Assembly (NCBI GenBank): GCA_913057645.1
Contig: CAJXOU010000009.1
Coordinates: forward strand, 1-64,000
Direction: 5' to 3'
Length of the DNA stretch: 64,000 nt
Source of the DNA: an uncultured Rhodobiaceae bacterium
GTDB taxonomy: Bacteria; Pseudomonadota; Alphaproteobacteria; Parvibaculales; Parvibaculaceae
The notes beneath the pieces were generated by a model, which did not search any database, was not told the DNA's origin, and worked only from the letters and a program-made list of their open reading frames with translations. The position numbers and the translations under genes were made by a program. This document shows positions 4,971-13,705 of this stretch, in pieces; positions within the stretch are counted from its first letter, which is position 1; every line of letters starts with the position of its first letter.

Positions 4971-5861
4971 TCAGATTTCGGCGATCCCAAACCCCTCATC
5001 CGCACGCGTGACGCGCACCATGTGCTCGCCCGCGAAATGCGCGGGGATCATGACGGCGCCCATATCCGCCACGCGGGAAAGCACGGCGCGGCGCGTGACC
5101 CGCGCCTGCTCCTGATCCTCGCAGAAGATGCTGTTCCATTGCGGCTGAAGAACCTGCAGCGGGTGATGCAGGATGTCGCCGACGAAGACGGCGCTGTCGT
5201 CCCGGCCCGCGACCGTGATGGTCATGCTGCCCGGCGTATGGCCGGGAGCCGGATCGAGCACGATGCCGGGTGCGACTTCCGCCCTGCCGCTCACGAGTTC
5301 GGCCATGCCGCGCTCGAGGATCGGCCGGACGCTGTCGTCGAAAAAGCCTTCATTGACCGCTTCGCCGATCTTCTCGGGAAACTTGCTCCGGTTCTCCGGG
5401 TTCCAGTATTCGGCGTCCGCCGCCGAGAAGATGTACCGCGCCCGCGGGAAGGCCGGCACCCACGCATCGCCTTCGAGCTTCGTGTTCCAGCCGACATGAT
5501 CGACGTGGAGATGGGTGCAGATCACCATGTCGATGTCTTCCGGCGCAAACCCCGCGGCAGCGAGACGCTCGATGAAAGGCGTTTCGAGCTGACCGAAGAG
5601 CGGAATGCCGGGCCGCTCCTTGTGATTGCCCGCGCCCGTGTCGATCAGCACCTTCATGCCGTTGATGTCCACGACCCAGCTTTGCAGCTGCGCGTGGATT
5701 TCGTCATTGCCGGTGTCGAGCGTGCCCTCGGGCACTTGCGTCTTCACGCGCACGTAATCGGCTTCGTCGAAACCGGTGAAAAGCTGTTGCGGCGACAGGA
5801 AGACGCCCTGCCATTCCTCGATGCGGTGAATGCGCACATCGCCCAGAGAAAGACGGTCCAT
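4971..5861 (-). CDS. MBL-fold metallo-hydrolase
   Basis: A 296-residue metallo-beta-lactamase-fold hydrolase with the dinuclear zinc motif T-H-L-H-V-D-H at residues 116-122, a downstream metal His in PAPGHTPGS near residue 210, the bridging Asp in FVGD, and a final His in IPAHF. The pattern resembles lactonase-like and quinoprotein-relay-type hydrolases; the substrate is unknown. It is the last gene of a minus-strand run (alcohol dehydrogenase, TetR, acyl-CoA ligase, this gene), 22 bp after the ligase. This suggests hydrolysis of an ester or lactone intermediate in the same pathway. Confidence 0.85.
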   Translation of the reverse strand: MDRLSLGDVRIHRIEEWQGVFLSPQQLFTGFDEADYVRVKTQVPEGTLDTGNDEIHAQLQSWVVDINGMKVLIDTGAGNHKERPGIPLFGQLETPFIERLAAAGFAPEDIDMVICTHLHVDHVGWNTKLEGDAWVPAFPRARYIFSAADAEYWNPENRSKFPEKIGEAVNEGFFDDSVRPILERGMAELVSGRAEVAPGIVLDPAPGHTPGSMTITVAGRDDSAVFVGDILHHPLQVLQPQWNSIFCEDQEQARVTRRAVLSRVADMGAVMIPAHFAGEHMVRVTRADEGFGIAEI

Positions 5862-5883
5862 CGGTTTTCTCCCTGTTGCGGGT

Positions 5884-7509
5884 CTAGAGGCTCAGCTTTT
5901 CGCGTTTGAAGGTGATGTTCGCCGTCTCGCGGTCCCATGTGTCCGCGGTCACGCCTTCGCGGCGGAGATCGACCTTCTGCACTTTCGCGGTCGGCGTCTT
6001 CGGCAGTTCGCCGACAACGCGCACATAGCGCGGCACCATGAAATAGGGCAGGCGCTCCGCGAGGAAAGCGGTGAGCGCCGCCGGATCGATACTTCGGCCG
6101 GCGACGGGCGCGACAACGGCCATCACCTCGTCTTCGCCCAGTTCGCTCGGCACGCCGATGGCAGCCGCCTCCTGTACGTCGGGATGCGCGACGATCTCGG
6201 CCTCGACCTCAAAGGAGGAAATGTTCTCGCCGCGCCGCCGGATTGCATCCTTGATGCGGTCGACGAAAAAGAAGTTCCCCGCCTCGTCGCGGCGGAACGC
6301 GTCGCCCGTGTGGAACCAGCCGTTGCGCCAGGCGCGCGCGGTTGCCTCCGGGTTCTTGTAATAGCCATGCATCATCGCCCAGGGCCGGTCGGTGCGCACG
6401 ATCATCTCGCCGACGGTGCCTGCCGGCACCTCGCAGTCGTTCTCGTCGACGAGGCGTACATCGACATGGGGCCGCACCGTGCCGCAGGTGCCGAGCGCCG
6501 TCGGGTTCGGCTCCGAGAGGATCGGCGTCGAGATCTCCGTCATGTTGAAGATCGTGTAGATGTCGATGCCGAAGCGCGTGTGGAATTCGCCCGCGCTTTC
6601 GGTGAGCGGCACCATCAGCGCGAGCCGCAGCTTGTGGTCGCGGTCGCCGGGCGAGGCGGGCTCCTTCAGCAGGAAGGTCGCCATGACGCCGAGCAGGAAG
6701 CAGGCCGTGCATTCCGTCCGCCGCACGAAATCCCAGAATTCGTCGGTCCGGAAGTTTTCCCAGAGCGCGATCGAGCCGCCCCGCGCCAGCATGACGAAGG
6801 GAAGGCCGACGCCGCCGATATGGAAGATCGGCAGGTTGACGAGAAAGCGGTCCTCGCCCGTCACGAAGTGCCATGTCTCCGGCCCGGCATTGGAAAACAG
6901 GTGGAGATAGGACATGAGGACGCCCTTGGAGGGCCCGGTCGTGCCCGACGTATAGATGACGGCCTGCGTGTCCCACGGATCGATGGGCCGTTCGAGCGGG
7001 GCGAGCGGCCCCGCCTCCACCGTCTCGAACCGCGCCGCGTCGAGACCGGGAGGTGCCTCGGCATCCGGCCCGCAGATCACGAGACGCTTCAACTGCGCGC
7101 GCTCGATCTCGCCGAGCCGGGGCACCAGATCGCCATGCACGATCATGAGTTCGGCGTCCGTGTTCGCCACCACATGTTCGAGGATCGAACCGCGATAGGC
7201 GGTGTTGATGGGGACGAAGACGGCGCCGAGATAATTGACCGCGAAGTGGCTGAGCAGTGCTTGCGCGCCGTTCGGCAGCCATGCGGCGACGTGGTCGCCC
7301 TGTTTCACGCCGAGCGACTGCAGCGCCGCGGCGCGCGCGGCGGTGCGCTCCAGCGTCTCGCGATAGCTCCAGCTCTCGCCGTCACCGAACACGACATAGG
7401 TCTCGTCCGGCTTTTCGCGCGCGAAGCGTTCGAGCGCATAGCGCAGCACGCATGTCTCGCGCGTGGGGATGCGCGGATCGGCGAACGTGGCGGTGGCTTC
7501 ATCCTGCAT
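5884..7509 (-). CDS. Acyl-CoA synthetase (AMP-forming, class I adenylate-forming)
   Basis: A 541-residue enzyme that activates a carboxylic acid with ATP and joins it to CoA. The P-loop YTSGTTGPSKG is at residues 186-196, the A5-like IFNMTEIS lies near 325, GWFHTGD near 400, the hinge DRIKDAIRRRGENIS follows, and the catalytic A10 Lys is near residue 509 in PKTPTAKVQK. It resembles crotonobetaine/carnitine-CoA ligase-like enzymes, but the acid cannot be named. It lies 37 bp downstream of the tetR-type gene and 22 bp upstream of the MBL gene. Confidence 0.88.
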   Translation of the reverse strand: MQDEATATFADPRIPTRETCVLRYALERFAREKPDETYVVFGDGESWSYRETLERTAARAAALQSLGVKQGDHVAAWLPNGAQALLSHFAVNYLGAVFVPINTAYRGSILEHVVANTDAELMIVHGDLVPRLGEIERAQLKRLVICGPDAEAPPGLDAARFETVEAGPLAPLERPIDPWDTQAVIYTSGTTGPSKGVLMSYLHLFSNAGPETWHFVTGEDRFLVNLPIFHIGGVGLPFVMLARGGSIALWENFRTDEFWDFVRRTECTACFLLGVMATFLLKEPASPGDRDHKLRLALMVPLTESAGEFHTRFGIDIYTIFNMTEISTPILSEPNPTALGTCGTVRPHVDVRLVDENDCEVPAGTVGEMIVRTDRPWAMMHGYYKNPEATARAWRNGWFHTGDAFRRDEAGNFFFVDRIKDAIRRRGENISSFEVEAEIVAHPDVQEAAAIGVPSELGEDEVMAVVAPVAGRSIDPAALTAFLAERLPYFMVPRYVRVVGELPKTPTAKVQKVDLRREGVTADTWDRETANITFKREKLSL

Positions 7510-7546
7510 GACGGTTCTCCTCCCCGAAAACCATGCGAGCGGTTGG

Positions 7547-8182
7547 CTATCTTTCCGGCGACACCATCTTCATCACCATGTGAAGTGTCAGCACGATCAC
7601 CTCGCTGGGCGGCCGCCGCCCGCCCGGCACATACCAGTTCGCGGTCCACGACATCAGACCACTGATCGAAAGCGCGGCAAACGCCACATCCTCGACGGCG
7701 AATTCCCCTTTCGCCGCGCCCTCGGCGAGCAGCGTTTCGAGCTTCTTGTCAAAAGCCTGGCGCTGCTTGCGGATGTCGCGCGCGACGCCGGGTTCGAGGT
7801 TCTTCTCCTCGCGCTCGTAGACGACGATATATTCCTGGTTCTCGATGATGAGCTGCGTCACCCGGTCGACGGCGAGCTTCAGCCTTTCGGTCGGCGTGCC
7901 CGGCGTCTCGAGCGCCGTATCGAGCGCGGCGGTCGACAGACGGATGCCGCGCTCGGATATTTCGCGCAGGATTTCCGCCTTGTTGCGGTAGTAGCTGTAG
8001 ATGAAGGGCTTGGTGACGTTGAGCCGTTCGGCGACCGCATCGAGCGTCGCGCCTTCATAGCCCTGCGCATAGAAGAGGTGACACGCCTCTTCGAGAATGA
8101 GGCGGCGCTTGTAGGCGGATATCTCGCCCTTCACGTCGCGCCGGGCCGCCTTGGCGACGTTATCCGGTTTGCGCGCGGCCAT
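7547..8182 (-). CDS. TetR/AcrR family regulator
   Basis: A 211-residue dimeric repressor. The N-terminal helix-turn-helix spans roughly residues 27-72 (ACHLFYAQGYEGATLDAVAERLNVTKPFIYSYY split over its helices). The C-terminal ligand domain includes the EREEKNLEPG helix and a hydrophobic SGLMSWTANWY pocket typical of regulators sensing acyl-CoA-like or aromatic ligands. It starts one base after the alcohol dehydrogenase stop, so it is translated with that gene and probably autoregulates the operon. Confidence 0.88.
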   Translation of the reverse strand: MAARKPDNVAKAARRDVKGEISAYKRRLILEEACHLFYAQGYEGATLDAVAERLNVTKPFIYSYYRNKAEILREISERGIRLSTAALDTALETPGTPTERLKLAVDRVTQLIIENQEYIVVYEREEKNLEPGVARDIRKQRQAFDKKLETLLAEGAAKGEFAVEDVAFAALSISGLMSWTANWYVPGGRRPPSEVIVLTLHMVMKMVSPER

Positions 8183-9352
8183 TCAGAGCGCCGTCTTCAG
8201 AAACGAAACCACGTCGTCCGCGGTCTCGATGGGGCGCGGGTTCGTGCGGGTCCAGATGTCGTGCATGATCGCTTCCGCGAGGTGCGGAAGATCGCTCTCC
8301 TTGACGCCGACCTCGCCGAGACTGCGCGGCATGCCGAGCCCGCGAATGAGCTTGTCCGCGGCAGCGCTGGCGCTTCCCGTCGCGCCGAGCGCTGTGGCGA
8401 TCCGCTTCTGCCGCTCGCCATTGACGCTTTCATTCCAGGCAAGCGCGTAGGGCGCCATGACGCAGCTCGTATGCCCATGCGGCACGTCGAAGGTGCCGCC
8501 GAGCGCATGACCCGTCGCATGGCTGATCCCCATCGGCACGCCGGCGACGACCGGGATCATGGATTGCCAGGCGCCGATCTGGCATTTGAGGCGGCCGTCG
8601 AGATCCTTCGCATCGGCTTTCGCGCGCGGCAAGCCCTCCGCGAGGTTGCGAAGCGCATTCTCGGCGACGCCGTCGCAGAACTCGTTGGAGTGGAACGAGC
8701 CGAGCGTCTCCATCGCGTGGTCGAGGGCGCGGACGCCGGTCGAGAGCCACAGCCATTCGGGCGTGTAGACCGTCATCGCGGGGTCGAGCACCACGGCGAC
8801 GGGCGCCATCAGCCGGTGCTGGTAGCCCTGCTTCAGTTTCGCCTTCTCGTCCGTCGCGCCACTCAGCGCATTGAACTCACCGCCCGACAGCGTCGTCGGC
8901 ACGCAGACGGCACGGACATCCGGTCCCTCGAAGGCGGGGAGCACCACGGCACCGTCGCCGCCCACATACATGTGGTAGGGCTCCATGTCGTCATGGGTCT
9001 CGAGATCGTGCTTGAGGCAGAGCGTGACGATCTTCGCGGCGTCGGTGATCGAGCCGCCGCCGATGGAGACGATGAGGTCCGCCTTCGCGGCGCGCGCCTG
9101 CGCGGCCGCCTCGAGCACGGCGGCGCGCGGCGCATGCGCGGGCATGCCGTCATAGATGCCGGCATGACGCCGGCCGAGCGCCTTTGCGATCTTCGCGATC
9201 TCGTCGGTCTCGCGGTTGAGGGTGCGGCTCGCCATCACGAAGACGTGGGCCGCGCCCTGCGTTTCCGCTTCCTCGGCAATGGCCTCCGCCGCGGGCCGCC
9301 CGACAAAGACGCGCTCCGTGGCCGTCTGCGAATAGGTCGCGCCGGCGGACAT
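8183..9352 (-). CDS. Iron-containing alcohol dehydrogenase
   Basis: A 389-residue group III NAD(P)-dependent dehydrogenase. The dinucleotide-binding GGGS is at about residues 97-100 (SIGGGSITDAAK). Metal-binding His residues appear in ALDHAMET, SHATGHALGG and VPHGHTS. It would oxidise an alcohol or reduce a ketone or maleylacetate-type substrate. It is the first gene of the minus-strand operon and diverges from the luciferase-like monooxygenase across 161 bp. An oxygenase/dehydrogenase/CoA-ligase set is thus grouped around one regulatory region. Confidence 0.88.
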   Translation of the reverse strand: MSAGATYSQTATERVFVGRPAAEAIAEEAETQGAAHVFVMASRTLNRETDEIAKIAKALGRRHAGIYDGMPAHAPRAAVLEAAAQARAAKADLIVSIGGGSITDAAKIVTLCLKHDLETHDDMEPYHMYVGGDGAVVLPAFEGPDVRAVCVPTTLSGGEFNALSGATDEKAKLKQGYQHRLMAPVAVVLDPAMTVYTPEWLWLSTGVRALDHAMETLGSFHSNEFCDGVAENALRNLAEGLPRAKADAKDLDGRLKCQIGAWQSMIPVVAGVPMGISHATGHALGGTFDVPHGHTSCVMAPYALAWNESVNGERQKRIATALGATGSASAAADKLIRGLGMPRSLGEVGVKESDLPHLAEAIMHDIWTRTNPRPIETADDVVSFLKTAL

Positions 9353-9513: not shown

Positions 9514-10764
9514 ATGAAATTCGGAGTGTTCTACGAACTGCAATTGCCGAAGCCCTGGAACGAGGGCGACGAACAGCGGCTGTTCCACGAGGCGCTGGAA
9601 CAAATCGTGCTGGCCGACAGGCTCGGCTTCGACCATGCCTGGGAAGTGGAACATCACTTCCTCGACGAATATTCGCATTCCTCCTCGCCGGAAGTGTTTC
9701 TCGCGGCGGCGGCGTCCGTCACGAAGAACATCCGCCTCGGCCACGGCATCCGCCAGGTGATCCCGAATTACAACCATCCGGCGCGAACGGCGGAAGGCCT
9801 CGCGACGCTCGACATCATGTCGAACGGGCGCGTCGAATTCGGCATCGGCGAGGGCGCGACGCGATTGGAGCTTGGCGGCTTCCACATTCCCGCGAAGGAA
9901 AAGCGTGCCATGGCCATCGAGGCGGGCGAGCAGATCGCCAACATGATGGCGCTCGACCCTTATCCCGGCTTCGAGGGGAAGTATTTCTCGATGCCCTGCC
10001 GCAACGTGCTGCCGAAGCCGGTGCAGAAGCCGCATCCGCCGATGTGGATGGCCTGCACCAACCGTGACACGATCCGCGTGGCGGCGTCGCTGGGCGTCGG
10101 CGCGCTCGCCTTCTCCTTCGTCGATCCGGAAGAGGCGAAGAACTGGTCCGACATCTATTACGGCATCATCAAGTCGGACGAATGCAGGCCGATCGGTCAT
10201 ACGGTGAATGCGAACATCGCGATGGTTTCGAACTTTTCGCTGCATGAGGACCGCGAGGAAGCGATCCGCCGTGGCCATGAGGGTTTCGAATTCTTCGGCT
10301 ATGCGCTGAACGCGCTCGTCGCGCACGACACGGTGCCGGGCCGCACCGACATGTGGGGCGACTACATCAAGGCGCGCGGTAACCGCACGCAGGAAGTGAT
10401 CGACGCGGCGAAGCGCGCCGACGCGATTGCGACGGGTATCGGCACGCCGGACGACATGCGTGCCCACCTGCGCGCCTTCCAGAATGCGGGCGTCGACCAG
10501 GTGATCTTCATGCAGCAGGCCGGCCGCAACAAGCATGCGGACATCTGCGAGTCGCTCGAACTCTTCGCGTCCGACGTCATGCCGGAATTCAAGCAGGAAG
10601 CCGCTGCCCGCGAAGCGAAGAAGCAGAAGGAACTTGCGCCCTACATCGAGGCGGCGCTGAAGCGCAAGAACTGGATGAAACCGCTGGAAGACCACGAGAT
10701 CCCCGTGGTGCAGGCCTCCGTCAAACAGGCGCAGGTGAACCAGAGCACAAGCGCGGCGGAGTAA
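9514..10764 (+). CDS. Luciferase-like flavin-dependent monooxygenase (LLM class)
   Basis: A 416-residue (beta/alpha)8 flavin monooxygenase of the bacterial luciferase superfamily. Such enzymes use FMNH2 and O2 to hydroxylate, desulfonate or insert oxygen into substrates. Visible landmarks are MKFGVFYELQLP, EHHFLDEYSHSSSPE, RLGHGIRQVIPNYNHPAR and GRVEFGIGEG. The C-terminal tail from about residue 350 is long and Lys/Glu-rich. A GGGGAGAAG ribosome site precedes the ATG. No dedicated flavin reductase gene is adjacent. The convincing substrate context is the divergent dehydrogenase/CoA-ligase operon. Confidence 0.88.
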   Translation: MKFGVFYELQLPKPWNEGDEQRLFHEALEQIVLADRLGFDHAWEVEHHFLDEYSHSSSPEVFLAAAASVTKNIRLGHGIRQVIPNYNHPARTAEGLATLDIMSNGRVEFGIGEGATRLELGGFHIPAKEKRAMAIEAGEQIANMMALDPYPGFEGKYFSMPCRNVLPKPVQKPHPPMWMACTNRDTIRVAASLGVGALAFSFVDPEEAKNWSDIYYGIIKSDECRPIGHTVNANIAMVSNFSLHEDREEAIRRGHEGFEFFGYALNALVAHDTVPGRTDMWGDYIKARGNRTQEVIDAAKRADAIATGIGTPDDMRAHLRAFQNAGVDQVIFMQQAGRNKHADICESLELFASDVMPEFKQEAAAREAKKQKELAPYIEAALKRKNWMKPLEDHEIPVVQASVKQAQVNQSTSAAE

Positions 10765-10783
10765 ATCCAGCTGAAGTTGTTGA

Positions 10784-10809
10784 GGGGCCGCGCCGGTTGC
10801 GCGGCCTTT
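10784..10809 (+). terminator. Terminator after LLM monooxygenase gene
   Basis: An 8-bp GC stem (10786-10793 with 10799-10806, loop CGGTT) is followed by TTT. It lies 20 bp beyond the stop. Confidence 0.7.
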
Positions 10810-10822
10810 CGCACATGTTTAG

Positions 10823-10836
10823 TGTGTATCTACACA
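10823..10836. promoter_or_regulatory. Putative MarR operator upstream of marR-type gene
   Basis: TGTGTA-TC-TACACA is a 14-bp palindrome 14 bp before the MarR start codon. Its core GTGTATCTACAC differs by one base from the core of the 18-bp palindrome at 12665-12682, in front of the convergent iron-sulfur gene. This suggests one regulator binds both and autoregulates. Confidence 0.65.
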
Positions 10837-10850
10837 AAACCGGGTGAAAC

Positions 10851-11285
10851 ATGAGCCAGACAGTCACCGAACAGGACGTGCGCGAGAACTGTGCTGCTCT
10901 GAGAGCGCGAATGGCGGCGCGGAAACTGACGCGGAGCTATGACAAGGCGCTGAAGCCCGCCGGTCTCAAGATTACGCAGTTCACGCTGCTGATCGCGGTC
11001 GAGGAAGGCAGCGTGAAATCGCTGACCGCGCTTGCCGACATGCTGGCGCTGGAGCGTTCGAGCCTCGTGCGCAATGTGAAGCTGCTGGAGGACGAGGGGC
11101 TGATCGAGGCGGCGCCGAGCGGCGAGGGCCGGTCGCTCGGGCTGAAGCTCACGAAAGCAGGCCGGAAGAAACTCACCCAGGCGCTGCCGCTCTGGCGCGA
11201 GGCGCAGACCCATGTGGAAACGGCGCTCGGCCAGAACTGGCCGGCGGTGAAGAAGTCGCTCCACCAGCTGATCCAGAAGACCTGA
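10851..11285 (+). CDS. MarR family transcriptional regulator
   Basis: A 144-residue winged-helix regulator. The recognition region spans about residues 50-100 (LTALADMLALERSSLVRNVKLLEDEGLIE, then the wing with GEGRS and LTKAGRK). An N-terminal Cys in ENCAALRAR and flanking helices form the dimer interface. It is convergent with the QueG-like/SCP2 gene, with only 3 bp between the stop codons. Both genes carry near-identical palindromes upstream, so this protein is likely to repress itself and that gene until a ligand binds. Confidence 0.88.
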   Translation: MSQTVTEQDVRENCAALRARMAARKLTRSYDKALKPAGLKITQFTLLIAVEEGSVKSLTALADMLALERSSLVRNVKLLEDEGLIEAAPSGEGRSLGLKLTKAGRKKLTQALPLWREAQTHVETALGQNWPAVKKSLHQLIQKT

Positions 11286-11288
11286 TCG

Positions 11289-12650
11289 TCAGGCTTCCAC
11301 CCGGTAGACCGGGAAGCAGTTCCGTATTGCCTCCGCCTTCTCCATGTCGCCGCCGAATATGGCGCCGCTTTGCGCTACTGCCTCGCCAAGCGAGAGCCCG
11401 TCGCGGAAGATCGAATGGAGCGTCTGCCAGTCGAGTGTGAGGGAGGCGTCGTTCGTCTCGGGCGCCTTGAACTCCACCTCGAGTTTTGAATTGCGCACGC
11501 GGATCGTTGCATGAAGCGGCCCGTGATCGGAAACGGAGAGCGCGAGCGTCGCATCGAGGCCGCGCGCCTTTCGCCGCTGGAAGGTGAGCGTGAGGCCGAA
11601 CAGGAAGGAGAAGGGATTGTCGGACGGGATGTTGTAGTCGACGAGCTTCACTTCCTTCGTCTTGAGGCGCTTCGGCACGCTCTCCTCCGCGTCGGAATTC
11701 TTCAGCACATAGACGGTCTCGGGCTTCGCCAGCAGCGGATCGAGAATGCGTTTGCGGTATTCGACCTTGTCTTCGATGTAGGGGCCGAGCACGTCGGAGC
11801 CCGCCGGGCAGACGCTCAGGCAATAAGCGGCCTTGTAGCCCGGCTTGAAGGAAAGGCTCTGCCACATGGAGACGCTTTCGCCGGGCGGCACGCGGGCGTC
11901 GTAGTCGTCGGCGTCCTTCGCCTCCACGACCTCGTGAACCCAGTCGACGAAGCCGCCCATGAACTCGCGGTAGTTGTGCGTGTAACAGGCGGAGAAGTTG
12001 AACGACCCGTCCATGCCGATGGCTTCGACCGGGCAGGCGGCGACACAGAGCTTGCAGTCGAGGCAGGGCGCATAGTCGAGCGGCACGGAGGGCACATCGA
12101 TTTCGCGGTCGATGACGATGGTGCCGAGCAGAATGAAGCTGCCGAAGCGCGGATGGATCACGTTGCGGTGGAGGCCCATCCTGCCGAGGCCGGCGGCTTC
12201 CGCGATCGGCTTGTGCGAGATGACGCGCATGCCGGCCGGATAGGCCTGCGCCTCCATCGGGAAGGCGGCGGCGGGATTGACCGCGCCGAAGCCCATCGCC
12301 TCGAGTTTCCTGACGGCCTTCCGCGCGACATGGTTCACATCGTCGTAGGTCTGGTGGAACTCCTCGTTCGCGACCGAGCGGACGGAAGTCCTGACCGTGT
12401 CGCGGTTCATGCGGACGACGAAACTGACAAGCGTCCTGGCGTTCGGCAGCAGCGCCGAGATCCAGGCCTGCTGGTCGGCAACCGCGGGATCGGAAACGGC
12501 GACGAAGCCGCAATCGTCCGCGCCGCATTCGAGCATGAGTTCCCGCAGGCTTTCGGATGTGATCGCTTCCGCTTCTGCGGCGCCATTCGCGCGCCAGCGC
12601 GCGACATCGGGATGCTCTCCCCCGGCGAGATCATGGGCCATGGCGTCCAT
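11289..12650 (-). CDS. QueG-like 4Fe-4S reductase fused to an SCP2-like domain
   Basis: A 453-residue protein. Residues 30-290 resemble the iron-sulfur module of epoxyqueuosine reductase/reductive dehalogenase-type proteins: C196-x2-C199-x2-C202-x3-C206, a Cys at 222, and a second group C277-x3-C281. The AAGLGRMGLHRN motif near 151-162 is typical of the family. Residues from about 345 to the end (FGLTLTFQRRKA, DWQTLHSIFRDGLS, SGAIFGGDMEKA) look like a sterol-carrier-protein-2 lipid-binding domain. No twin-arginine signal is seen, so it is cytosolic. Function is unknown: a reductase acting on a hydrophobic, carrier-bound substrate is inferred. Confidence 0.75.
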   Translation of the reverse strand: MDAMAHDLAGGEHPDVARWRANGAAEAEAITSESLRELMLECGADDCGFVAVSDPAVADQQAWISALLPNARTLVSFVVRMNRDTVRTSVRSVANEEFHQTYDDVNHVARKAVRKLEAMGFGAVNPAAAFPMEAQAYPAGMRVISHKPIAEAAGLGRMGLHRNVIHPRFGSFILLGTIVIDREIDVPSVPLDYAPCLDCKLCVAACPVEAIGMDGSFNFSACYTHNYREFMGGFVDWVHEVVEAKDADDYDARVPPGESVSMWQSLSFKPGYKAAYCLSVCPAGSDVLGPYIEDKVEYRKRILDPLLAKPETVYVLKNSDAEESVPKRLKTKEVKLVDYNIPSDNPFSFLFGLTLTFQRRKARGLDATLALSVSDHGPLHATIRVRNSKLEVEFKAPETNDASLTLDWQTLHSIFRDGLSLGEAVAQSGAIFGGDMEKAEAIRNCFPVYRVEA

Positions 12651-12664
12651 CTCCGTATTGTTGG

Positions 12665-12682
12665 ATAGTGTATATACACTAT
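12665..12682. promoter_or_regulatory. 18-bp perfect palindrome upstream of the QueG-like/SCP2 gene
   Basis: ATAGTGTAT is followed at once by its exact reverse complement. It lies 14 bp upstream of the start codon at 12650. The core GTGTATATACAC matches the MarR-gene site at 10824-10835 in 11 of 12 positions. Confidence 0.7.
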
Positions 12683-12856
12683 AAGAAGGGCCGCCGGTTC
12701 CGGCAAGAACCTTGCCCGGAGAAATTATGCGTACTTGAGATACGTAAACTGGAAATCGGGCCCCCGAAGCGTTAGGCTCGGACGAGGGCGACCCGGGGGG
12801 AGCCGGGCCGCCGAAGAGAAACCGGGCAAACCGGCGTCTGAACCAAAGGGGGAGAA

Positions 12857-13705
12857 ATGCCGAAGGGAAAGATCGACCTGGACGCGAAATACGCGGATTT
12901 CGAACGCGACGGCTATGTGATCTTCGAAAATGTGATCGAGCCGGACCTCGTCGCCGAGATCAAGGACGCGTTGCTGCGCGTCGAGCGCGACAACGATATG
13001 GGCTTTCGTGACACGGACTTCGAAGGCAAGCGCACGGTGCGCATCTACAACCTGCTGGCTCACGGGCCCACCTTCTGGAAGATACCGGTCCACGAGGCGA
13101 CGCTGCCCTTCGCCGAGAAGGTGCTCGACGAGGAACTACAGGTTTCGTCGGTGAGCTCGATCACGCTGTGTCCGGGGCAGGGCGCGCAGCCTCTTCATGC
13201 GGACGATCAGTTGATCCCGGTACCGAAGCCGCACCAGCCCTTCACTCTGAATTGCGTCTGGGCGATTTCCGATTTCACGGAAGAGAACGGCGCGACGCGG
13301 CTCGTGCCCGGCAGTCACAAGGCGAGCGGCATGCCGGACTACGATATCGATTGCGATACCGTGGCGGGCGAGATGCCGGCGGGCTCGGTGCTCTTCTGGC
13401 ATGGCAGCCTCTGGCATGCAGGCGGCACCAACCGCTCGCAGGATCGCCGCTTCTGCGTCGCGAACTATTATTGCGCGGGCTTCATGCGCCAGCAGGAGAA
13501 CCAGCAGCTCGGCATTCCGCTCGACGAGGCGCGAAAATTTCCGCGGCGGCTGCAGGAGCTCTGCGGTTACTCCGTCTATCGGGGTCTCTACGGCCATGTC
13601 GACAACGAGGACCCGATTTCGATGCTTGGCAGGCAGGACGGCTCGAAGCTGATCTGGCAGCGCAGCTACGACGAAATGTACGAGGACAAGACGGCAGCTG
13701 ATTAA
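12857..13705 (+). CDS. Phytanoyl-CoA dioxygenase (PhyH) family protein
   Basis: A 282-residue Fe(II)/2-oxoglutarate-dependent dioxygenase with a double-stranded beta-helix. The facial triad is visible as H114-A-D116 and a distal His at 187 (SLWHAGG), with an Arg-rich stretch at 193-198 for 2-oxoglutarate. It would hydroxylate a lipid, terpenoid or CoA-linked substrate. A GGGGGAGA ribosome site precedes ATG 12857. It diverges from the QueG-like/SCP2 gene across 206 bp containing the palindrome and may share its control. Confidence 0.88.
   Translation: MPKGKIDLDAKYADFERDGYVIFENVIEPDLVAEIKDALLRVERDNDMGFRDTDFEGKRTVRIYNLLAHGPTFWKIPVHEATLPFAEKVLDEELQVSSVSSITLCPGQGAQPLHADDQLIPVPKPHQPFTLNCVWAISDFTEENGATRLVPGSHKASGMPDYDIDCDTVAGEMPAGSVLFWHGSLWHAGGTNRSQDRRFCVANYYCAGFMRQQENQQLGIPLDEARKFPRRLQELCGYSVYRGLYGHVDNEDPISMLGRQDGSKLIWQRSYDEMYEDKTAAD

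Follow-up and report, generated by a model that had tools for sequence, protein, structure and literature searches.

To our knowledge, the only class III cobalamin enzymes to have been characterised are epoxyqueuosine reductase (QueG) and the reductive dehalogenases. The alkylsulfatases provide an earlier example of an SCP2-like domain joined to an enzyme for greasy substrates. In QueG of S. thermophilus (StQueG), the B12-distant cluster is ligated by Cys184, 187, 190 and 243 and the B12-proximal cluster by Cys194, 210, 236 and 239, and the authors of that study expected further families to exist, although no motif gives them away (PMC4646009). Reductive dehalogenases of the catabolic type reside in the cytosol and are known from aerobic alphaproteobacteria (PMC10463259), and the MarR-family repressor MosR acts as an oxidation sensor via a Cys10-Cys12 disulfide (PMC5823404).

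Here we describe P0001, a previously undescribed relative of the vitamin-B12-dependent reductases QueG and reductive dehalogenases. It is encoded in a 64,000-nucleotide stretch of DNA from an uncultured Rhodobiaceae bacterium (contig CAJXOU010000009.1 of assembly GCA_913057645.1), referred to as the window, and the features of the locus are collected in Table 1.

Table 1. Features of the P0001 locus, with their positions in the window.
Feature	Position	Strand	Basis
QueG/RdhA-like + SCP2 fusion protein P0001, 453 aa	11289..12650	(-)	ORF; conserved family
Class III cobalamin-enzyme-like N-terminal domain, residues ~31-190	12081..12560	(-)	hhalign, Foldseek
Two-cluster ferredoxin module, residues ~191-290	11781..12080	(-)	Fer4 families 37/37; QueG alignment
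Cys196/199/202/206 motif (C-x2-C-x2-C-x3-CP)	12033..12065	(-)	invariant 37/37
Cys222, equivalent to StQueG Cys210, B12-proximal cluster ligand	11985..11987	(-)	alignment to QueG
Ala274, at StQueG Cys236 (B12-proximal ligand)	11829..11831	(-)	Ala/Ser 36/37
Cys277, equivalent to StQueG Cys239	11820..11822	(-)	invariant
Cys281, equivalent to StQueG Cys243, distal cluster	11808..11810	(-)	invariant
SCP2-like lipid-carrier domain, residues ~346-445	11316..11615	(-)	profiles, predicted fold
Cys445, at end of SCP2-like domain	11316..11318	(-)	invariant 36/36 members reaching it
MarR-family repressor, invariant Cys14, MosR-like, convergent with enzyme gene	10851..11285	(+)	Pfam MarR_2 E 3e-7
Sigma-70-like promoter TTGCCG-17-TATAGT	12678..12706	(-)	consensus match only
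Perfect 18-bp palindrome ATAGTGTATATACACTAT, predicted MarR operator, overlaps -10	12665..12682	.	sequence scan
Second predicted operator copy GTGTGTATCTACACAA, core 10824-10835, just upstream of marR	10822..10837	.	sequence scan

Distribution of the P0001 family

About 37 family members were assembled (up to about 40 relatives), at 33-92% identity to P0001 and with the full architecture kept down to about 33% identity; some 40 conserved relatives rule out a chance ORF at this position. The genome collection held 16 family loci, and the gene was found in 19 of the 40 genomes of the host's order. The hosts comprise Alphaproteobacteria (members of this order and scattered others of the class), Nannocystis (Myxococcota), Geothrix (Acidobacteriota) and one contig assigned to the thaumarchaeal genus Nitrosarchaeum. 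Family genes also reside on plasmids, one in Nostoc and two in Priestia megaterium; as plasmid members were confined to Nostoc and Priestia, plasmid cargo was rejected as the nature of the family. PADLOC gave no match for the enzyme as a defence system, and that role was rejected accordingly. The Nitrosarchaeum MAG contig (4068 bp) carries a member with Ser at position 274, flanked by what inspection by eye suggests are archaeal genes (for a TrmB-like regulator and a flavin/PNPOx-like protein), and could represent either transfer to Thaumarchaeota or mis-binning.

The only RefSeq name for the family is 'SCP2 sterol-binding domain-containing protein'. In the open-access papers covered by the search, none was found that connects SCP2 to reductive dehalogenase or sterol carrier protein to epoxyqueuosine reductase, and among the papers listed for SCP2 together with iron-sulfur or cobalamin, none dealt with the P0001 family.

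Relationship to QueG and reductive dehalogenases

A kinship with QueG and reductive dehalogenases, proposed in a previous sequence-only reading of the locus, was borne out by profile and structure comparisons. The family profile aligned with 20 QueG sequences in hhalign over residues 31-341 (probability 99.4, E 9e-22), and a Foldseek search with the AlphaFold model of P0001 (five models, pLDDT 77, pTM 0.70) returned QueG 5d6s at the top (E 1.7e-9) along with the membrane-bound reductive dehalogenase 8q4h, PceA and NpRdhA, as well as a match to the SCP2-like domain of Pisa1. Whole-length TM-scores were low (0.3-0.4) because the domains and loops shift, and the model was weak (pLDDT <50) in loops 129-142, 227-232 and 257-275, which would form the active site and the surroundings of Ala274. 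By both methods P0001 has the fold of the cobalamin domain and ferredoxin module of the class III cobalamin/[4Fe-4S] superfamily, and the N-terminal domain carries the motif HKPIAEAAGLGxMGxHRxVIHPxFGxFxLL, whose AGLGxMGxHR...GxFxLL block is common to QueG and highly conserved in the family. The scores of P0001 against the two named models were nevertheless well below the curated cut-offs, at 52.7 bits for QueG (TIGR00276, cut-off 200) and 33.3 bits for reductive dehalogenases (TIGR02486, cut-off 160.35). By fold P0001 lies within the superfamily, and by its scores, ligand set and C-terminal domain it lies outside both QueG and the reductive dehalogenases.

While TIGR00276 is the closest named model, which could be taken to indicate a QueG variant acting on tRNA, such a variant is extremely improbable. 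The same genome encodes a separate, genuine QueG that scores 456.7 bits with this model, the C-terminus of P0001 has an SCP2-like fold in place of the HEAT-like helical repeat domain of QueG, and the gene seems to have a dedicated repressor. The sub-threshold score, the missing HEAT tail and the second QueG led us to reject QueG identity, in line with the earlier proposal that P0001 is not the tRNA-modifying enzyme.

We also regard it as rather unlikely that P0001 is a cytosolic reductive dehalogenase proper, which would dehalogenate a hydrophobic organohalide with the SCP2-like domain as its substrate collector. Its fold and sequence kinship to PceA and NpRdhA, the xenobiotic-type regulators adjoining family genes and the presence of cytosolic catabolic RdhAs in aerobic alphaproteobacteria (PMC10463259) would all be in keeping with this activity. 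However, in addition to the low dehalogenase score, P0001 has neither the PDOR domain nor the duplicated B12 domain usual in catabolic RdhAs, the flanks examined showed no gene for rdhB or a ferredoxin, and Phe occupies the likely Tyr position. In a motif-level match within a region that hhalign aligns loosely, invariant Phe98-His99 falls on the Tyr-His of QueG (the Tyr101/Asp130 site), and Phe98 of P0001 probably takes the place of the catalytic Tyr common to QueG and RdhA; with Phe at this likely position, the chemistry may differ from that of QueG and RdhA. The missing Tat signal had been taken to set P0001 apart from the respiratory dehalogenases. Inspection of the N-terminus by eye indeed showed no signal peptide, RR/twin-arginine motif or hydrophobic stretch, but this feature does not discriminate P0001 from dehalogenases, since the catabolic enzymes, which are cytosolic, have no such signal either (PMC10463259).

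Loss of one ligand position of the QueG B12-proximal cluster

The sequence-only reading had placed two Cys clusters at residues 196-206 and 222-281. While Cys196, 199, 202 and 206 and Cys222, 277 and 281 were confirmed, the second set proved to be one Cys short, the first Cys of QueG's C-x2-C-x3-CP being replaced by Ala274. In the hhalign alignment, YKAAYC of P0001 lies ungapped on YGCDDC of QueG, and the distal ligands map to C196, C199, C202 and C281 and the proximal positions to C206, C222, A274 and C277. P0001 thus has seven of the eight ferredoxin Cys that hold two [4Fe-4S] clusters in QueG, and these seven are invariant in all 37 members. At position 274, 35 of 37 members have Ala, the one on the Nitrosarchaeum-assigned contig has Ser, and L079 alone has Cys; as this state is family-wide, a sequencing error was rejected as the source of Ala274. 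A QueG-rooted tree placed L079 beside all the others (support 82) on a long branch, so that its placement is tentative; as it stands, it would be consistent with a single loss of Cys274.

Beyond the seven core Cys, only Cys445 is invariant (29/29 in a separate count), and the very divergent SCP2-like domain has no more than one further invariant position. A role as compensating ligand for Ala274 found no support, since L079 carries both Cys274 and Cys445 and the residue is therefore not simply a compensation. The proximal cluster may be a [3Fe-4S] cluster, a [4Fe-4S] cluster with an open site, or a cluster ligated in some other way.

These findings bear on the possibility that P0001 is a B12-free iron-sulfur enzyme that has lost cobalamin and converts a hydrophobic substrate at the open iron of a three-Cys proximal cluster. 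In its favour are the lost ligand, which belongs to the cluster on the cobalamin side in QueG, and the family-specific invariant residues that are unlike QueG (RSxAN-EFH, FPME, WQSL and HNYRE). It is unlikely, however, given the strong conservation of the block shared with QueG in the N-terminal domain and the fact that Foldseek still puts cobalamin enzymes first.

The C-terminal SCP2-like domain

Structure prediction of residues 330-453 and profile searches recovered the SCP2 fold that had been postulated for the C-terminus, as the check suggested with the sequence-only reading required, and the fusion is confirmed. Pfam SCP2 matched 27 of the 37 members (best E 2.2e-12), while P0001 itself, at 18.1 bits (E 0.0036), remained under the gathering score of 21.3. 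The family profile matched rat and rabbit SCP2 and the SCP2-like domains of alkylsulfatases in the PDB (E 9e-4 to 3e-3). The AlphaFold model of residues 330-453 (pLDDT 84.9) found its best structural match in the SCP2-like domain of Pisa1 (E 1.4e-7, TMq 0.75, rmsd 2.1), and also matched UbiJ-SCP2 and human and rabbit SCP2.

A MarR repressor and paired palindromes

Control by MarR had been proposed on the basis of adjacency only. The two genes are convergent, with 3 nt between the end of marR and the stop of the enzyme gene, and this tail-to-tail adjacency alone therefore proves nothing on control. The proposal is now supported by a predicted palindromic operator common to both genes. Just two copies of its core, GTGTATNTACAC, exist in the 3.75-Mb genome, one ahead of the enzyme gene and one ahead of the adjacent marR, hence at both the presumed target and the repressor's own promoter, and a two-gene regulon is therefore predicted. 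The palindrome at the enzyme gene lies 15 nt ahead of the start codon, and the -10 beneath it is the only sigma-70-like -10 in the scanned stretch 10700-12950. The view that convergent orientation precludes MarR control was dropped once the paired palindromes had been found.

The predicted operator was present ~10-45 nt upstream of the enzyme gene in all 11 Parvibaculum loci, with 0-2 mismatches, and a second one ahead of marR in several of them. A degenerate core preceded 21 of the 26 members tested against ~0.3 expected, although the members are related and these are not 21 independent events. The enzyme gene thus seems to be under the control of the repressor encoded next to it. Across the family, marR adjoins the enzyme gene in three arrangements (convergent, as upstream operon partner, and downstream), and some members are found beside TetR or HxlR regulators, not MarR. 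In one Parvibaculum genome, all that is left of the enzyme is a remnant of ~36 residues, and marR persists with its own predicted operator (G017:C7:174000-189000, at ~6790-7410 of that locus).

The nearest solved structure to the window MarR is MosR (4fx0/4fx4, E 1e-22). Its N-terminal Cys14 is invariant among the MarR proteins of the family loci (24/24) and corresponds to the first sensing Cys of MosR; Ala stands at the position of MosR Cys12, which precludes a disulfide of the MosR kind in the window MarR.

A linked repressor of the oxidation-sensor type, together with the missing proximal ligand and an invariant Cys in the lipid domain, could also point to a protein that is no catalyst but binds lipid and senses redox state or carries electrons: its SCP2-like domain would take up an oxidised lipid, and its Fe-S chain would pass electrons on to a partner protein. 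We consider this improbable, as a mere carrier would have no need of a conserved B12-like domain with many invariant polar residues.

Genome context and cobalamin supply

Use of B12 by the organism is supported by its genuine QueG and by a cobalamin riboswitch (G000:C18:6397-6635) ahead of a TonB receptor gene. The host genome gave no match to CobN, so that B12 probably has to be imported, suggesting a B12 importer and not an aerobic-pathway producer.

No conserved neighbour pointing to a substrate or redox partner was found across the family loci. Genes for PhyH, LLM and acyl-CoA ligase proteins were rejected as partners and attributed to local synteny, since PhyH adjoins the enzyme gene in three close Parvibaculum loci only and the LLM gene is retained in a genome without the enzyme. 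On the two Priestia megaterium plasmids, the family gene is followed by genes for an ABC permease, an SDR, a FabF-like KAS II and MaoC, an order suggesting a lipid-related cluster. A gene for an NmrA-like NAD(P)-binding protein, a possible partner of the family enzyme, lies near the family gene in two distantly related bacteria, an alphaproteobacterium (L075) and Geothrix (L017). Elsewhere in the window, positions 4971-9352 (-) encode a metallo-beta-lactamase fold protein, an acyl-CoA ligase, a TetR_C_24 regulator and an Fe-containing alcohol dehydrogenase, a cluster resembling a unit for the breakdown of fatty acids or xenobiotics.

Proposed function

Our main reading, for which we put the probability of the whole mechanism at about one half, is that P0001 is a cytosolic redox enzyme of the QueG/reductive dehalogenase superfamily that acts on a hydrophobic electrophile held in cis and is controlled by MarR. 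The enzyme would probably reduce a greasy reactive compound on demand, and is probably cobalamin-dependent. Electrons would enter via the distal four-Cys [4Fe-4S] cluster (C196/C199/C202/C281) and pass to the proximal cluster on three Cys (C206/C222/C277), with Ala at the fourth position, and from there to a base-off cobalamin bound by the N-terminal domain. The electrophilic group would be reduced by cob(I)alamin or, possibly, directly by the open iron site, while the C-terminal SCP2 domain would grip the substrate by its greasy part and offer it to the active site. The redox chemistry on a hydrophobic ligand suggested by the sequence-only reading would fit this scheme. The Cys-containing MarR would bind the palindromes ahead of the enzyme gene and its own gene and let go on oxidation or attack by an electrophile, so that the enzyme would be made when substrate or stress appears. 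Its role may be reductive detoxification or catabolism. Several observations weigh against this reading, namely the Phe that probably stands in for the catalytic Tyr, the low confidence of the model in the presumptive active-site loops, the absence of a conserved neighbour indicating substrate or redox partner, the missing second Cys in the window MarR, the TetR or HxlR regulators beside some members and the lack of a CobN match in the genome.

More tentatively, the family might constitute a third functional branch of cobalamin/iron-sulfur reductases, spread over several bacterial phyla, in which the cluster touching cobalamin has one protein ligand fewer and a lipid-like electrophile is carried in cis by SCP2. 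The cluster would then be a site-differentiated [4Fe-4S] or a [3Fe-4S] cluster, or would draw a ligand from the substrate or from Cys445.

The family is a concrete candidate for a further class III family, available in cultured Parvibaculum, Priestia and Nostoc, and offers a naturally occurring form of the B12-proximal cluster with three Cys. Its lipid-carrier domain hints at a new substrate class, and the inducer of the predicted self-contained regulon would point to the substrate of the enzyme. Neither the incomplete ligation of the proximal cluster nor the Phe at what is likely the catalytic Tyr position had been recognised in the sequence-only reading, which also overlooked invariant C445 and the multi-phylum family; the family-wide loss of a proximal-cluster Cys and the paired palindromes at the enzyme gene and marR are new beyond it.

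Comparison with known systems

P0001 shares with QueG (StQueG 5d6s, BsQueG 5d08) the N-terminal class III cobalamin domain and the two-cluster ferredoxin module, alignable over residues 31-341. Unlike QueG, it has SCP2 for the HEAT tail, Ala at one proximal-cluster Cys and Phe at the likely Tyr101, falls under the family cut-off and coexists with a true QueG. The same fold core is found in the reductive dehalogenases, both respiratory (PceA) and catabolic (NpRdhA, JtRdhA, BhbA), and P0001 resembles the catabolic enzymes in having no Tat signal. In contrast to these dehalogenases, it has no RDH-level score, carries an SCP2 fusion and has seven core Cys as against eight, and unlike the catabolic enzymes it is without a PDOR reductase or duplicated B12 domain. 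The alkylsulfatases Pisa1 (2yhe) and SdsA1 (2cfu) likewise bear a C-terminal SCP2-like fold on an enzyme for greasy substrates, while their enzyme part has a metallo-beta-lactamase fold. Finally, the window MarR is like the oxidation-sensing MarR repressors MosR (Rv1049) and OhrR in keeping the first sensing Cys, and differs from them in having no second Cys and in its predicted target, a QueG-like enzyme.
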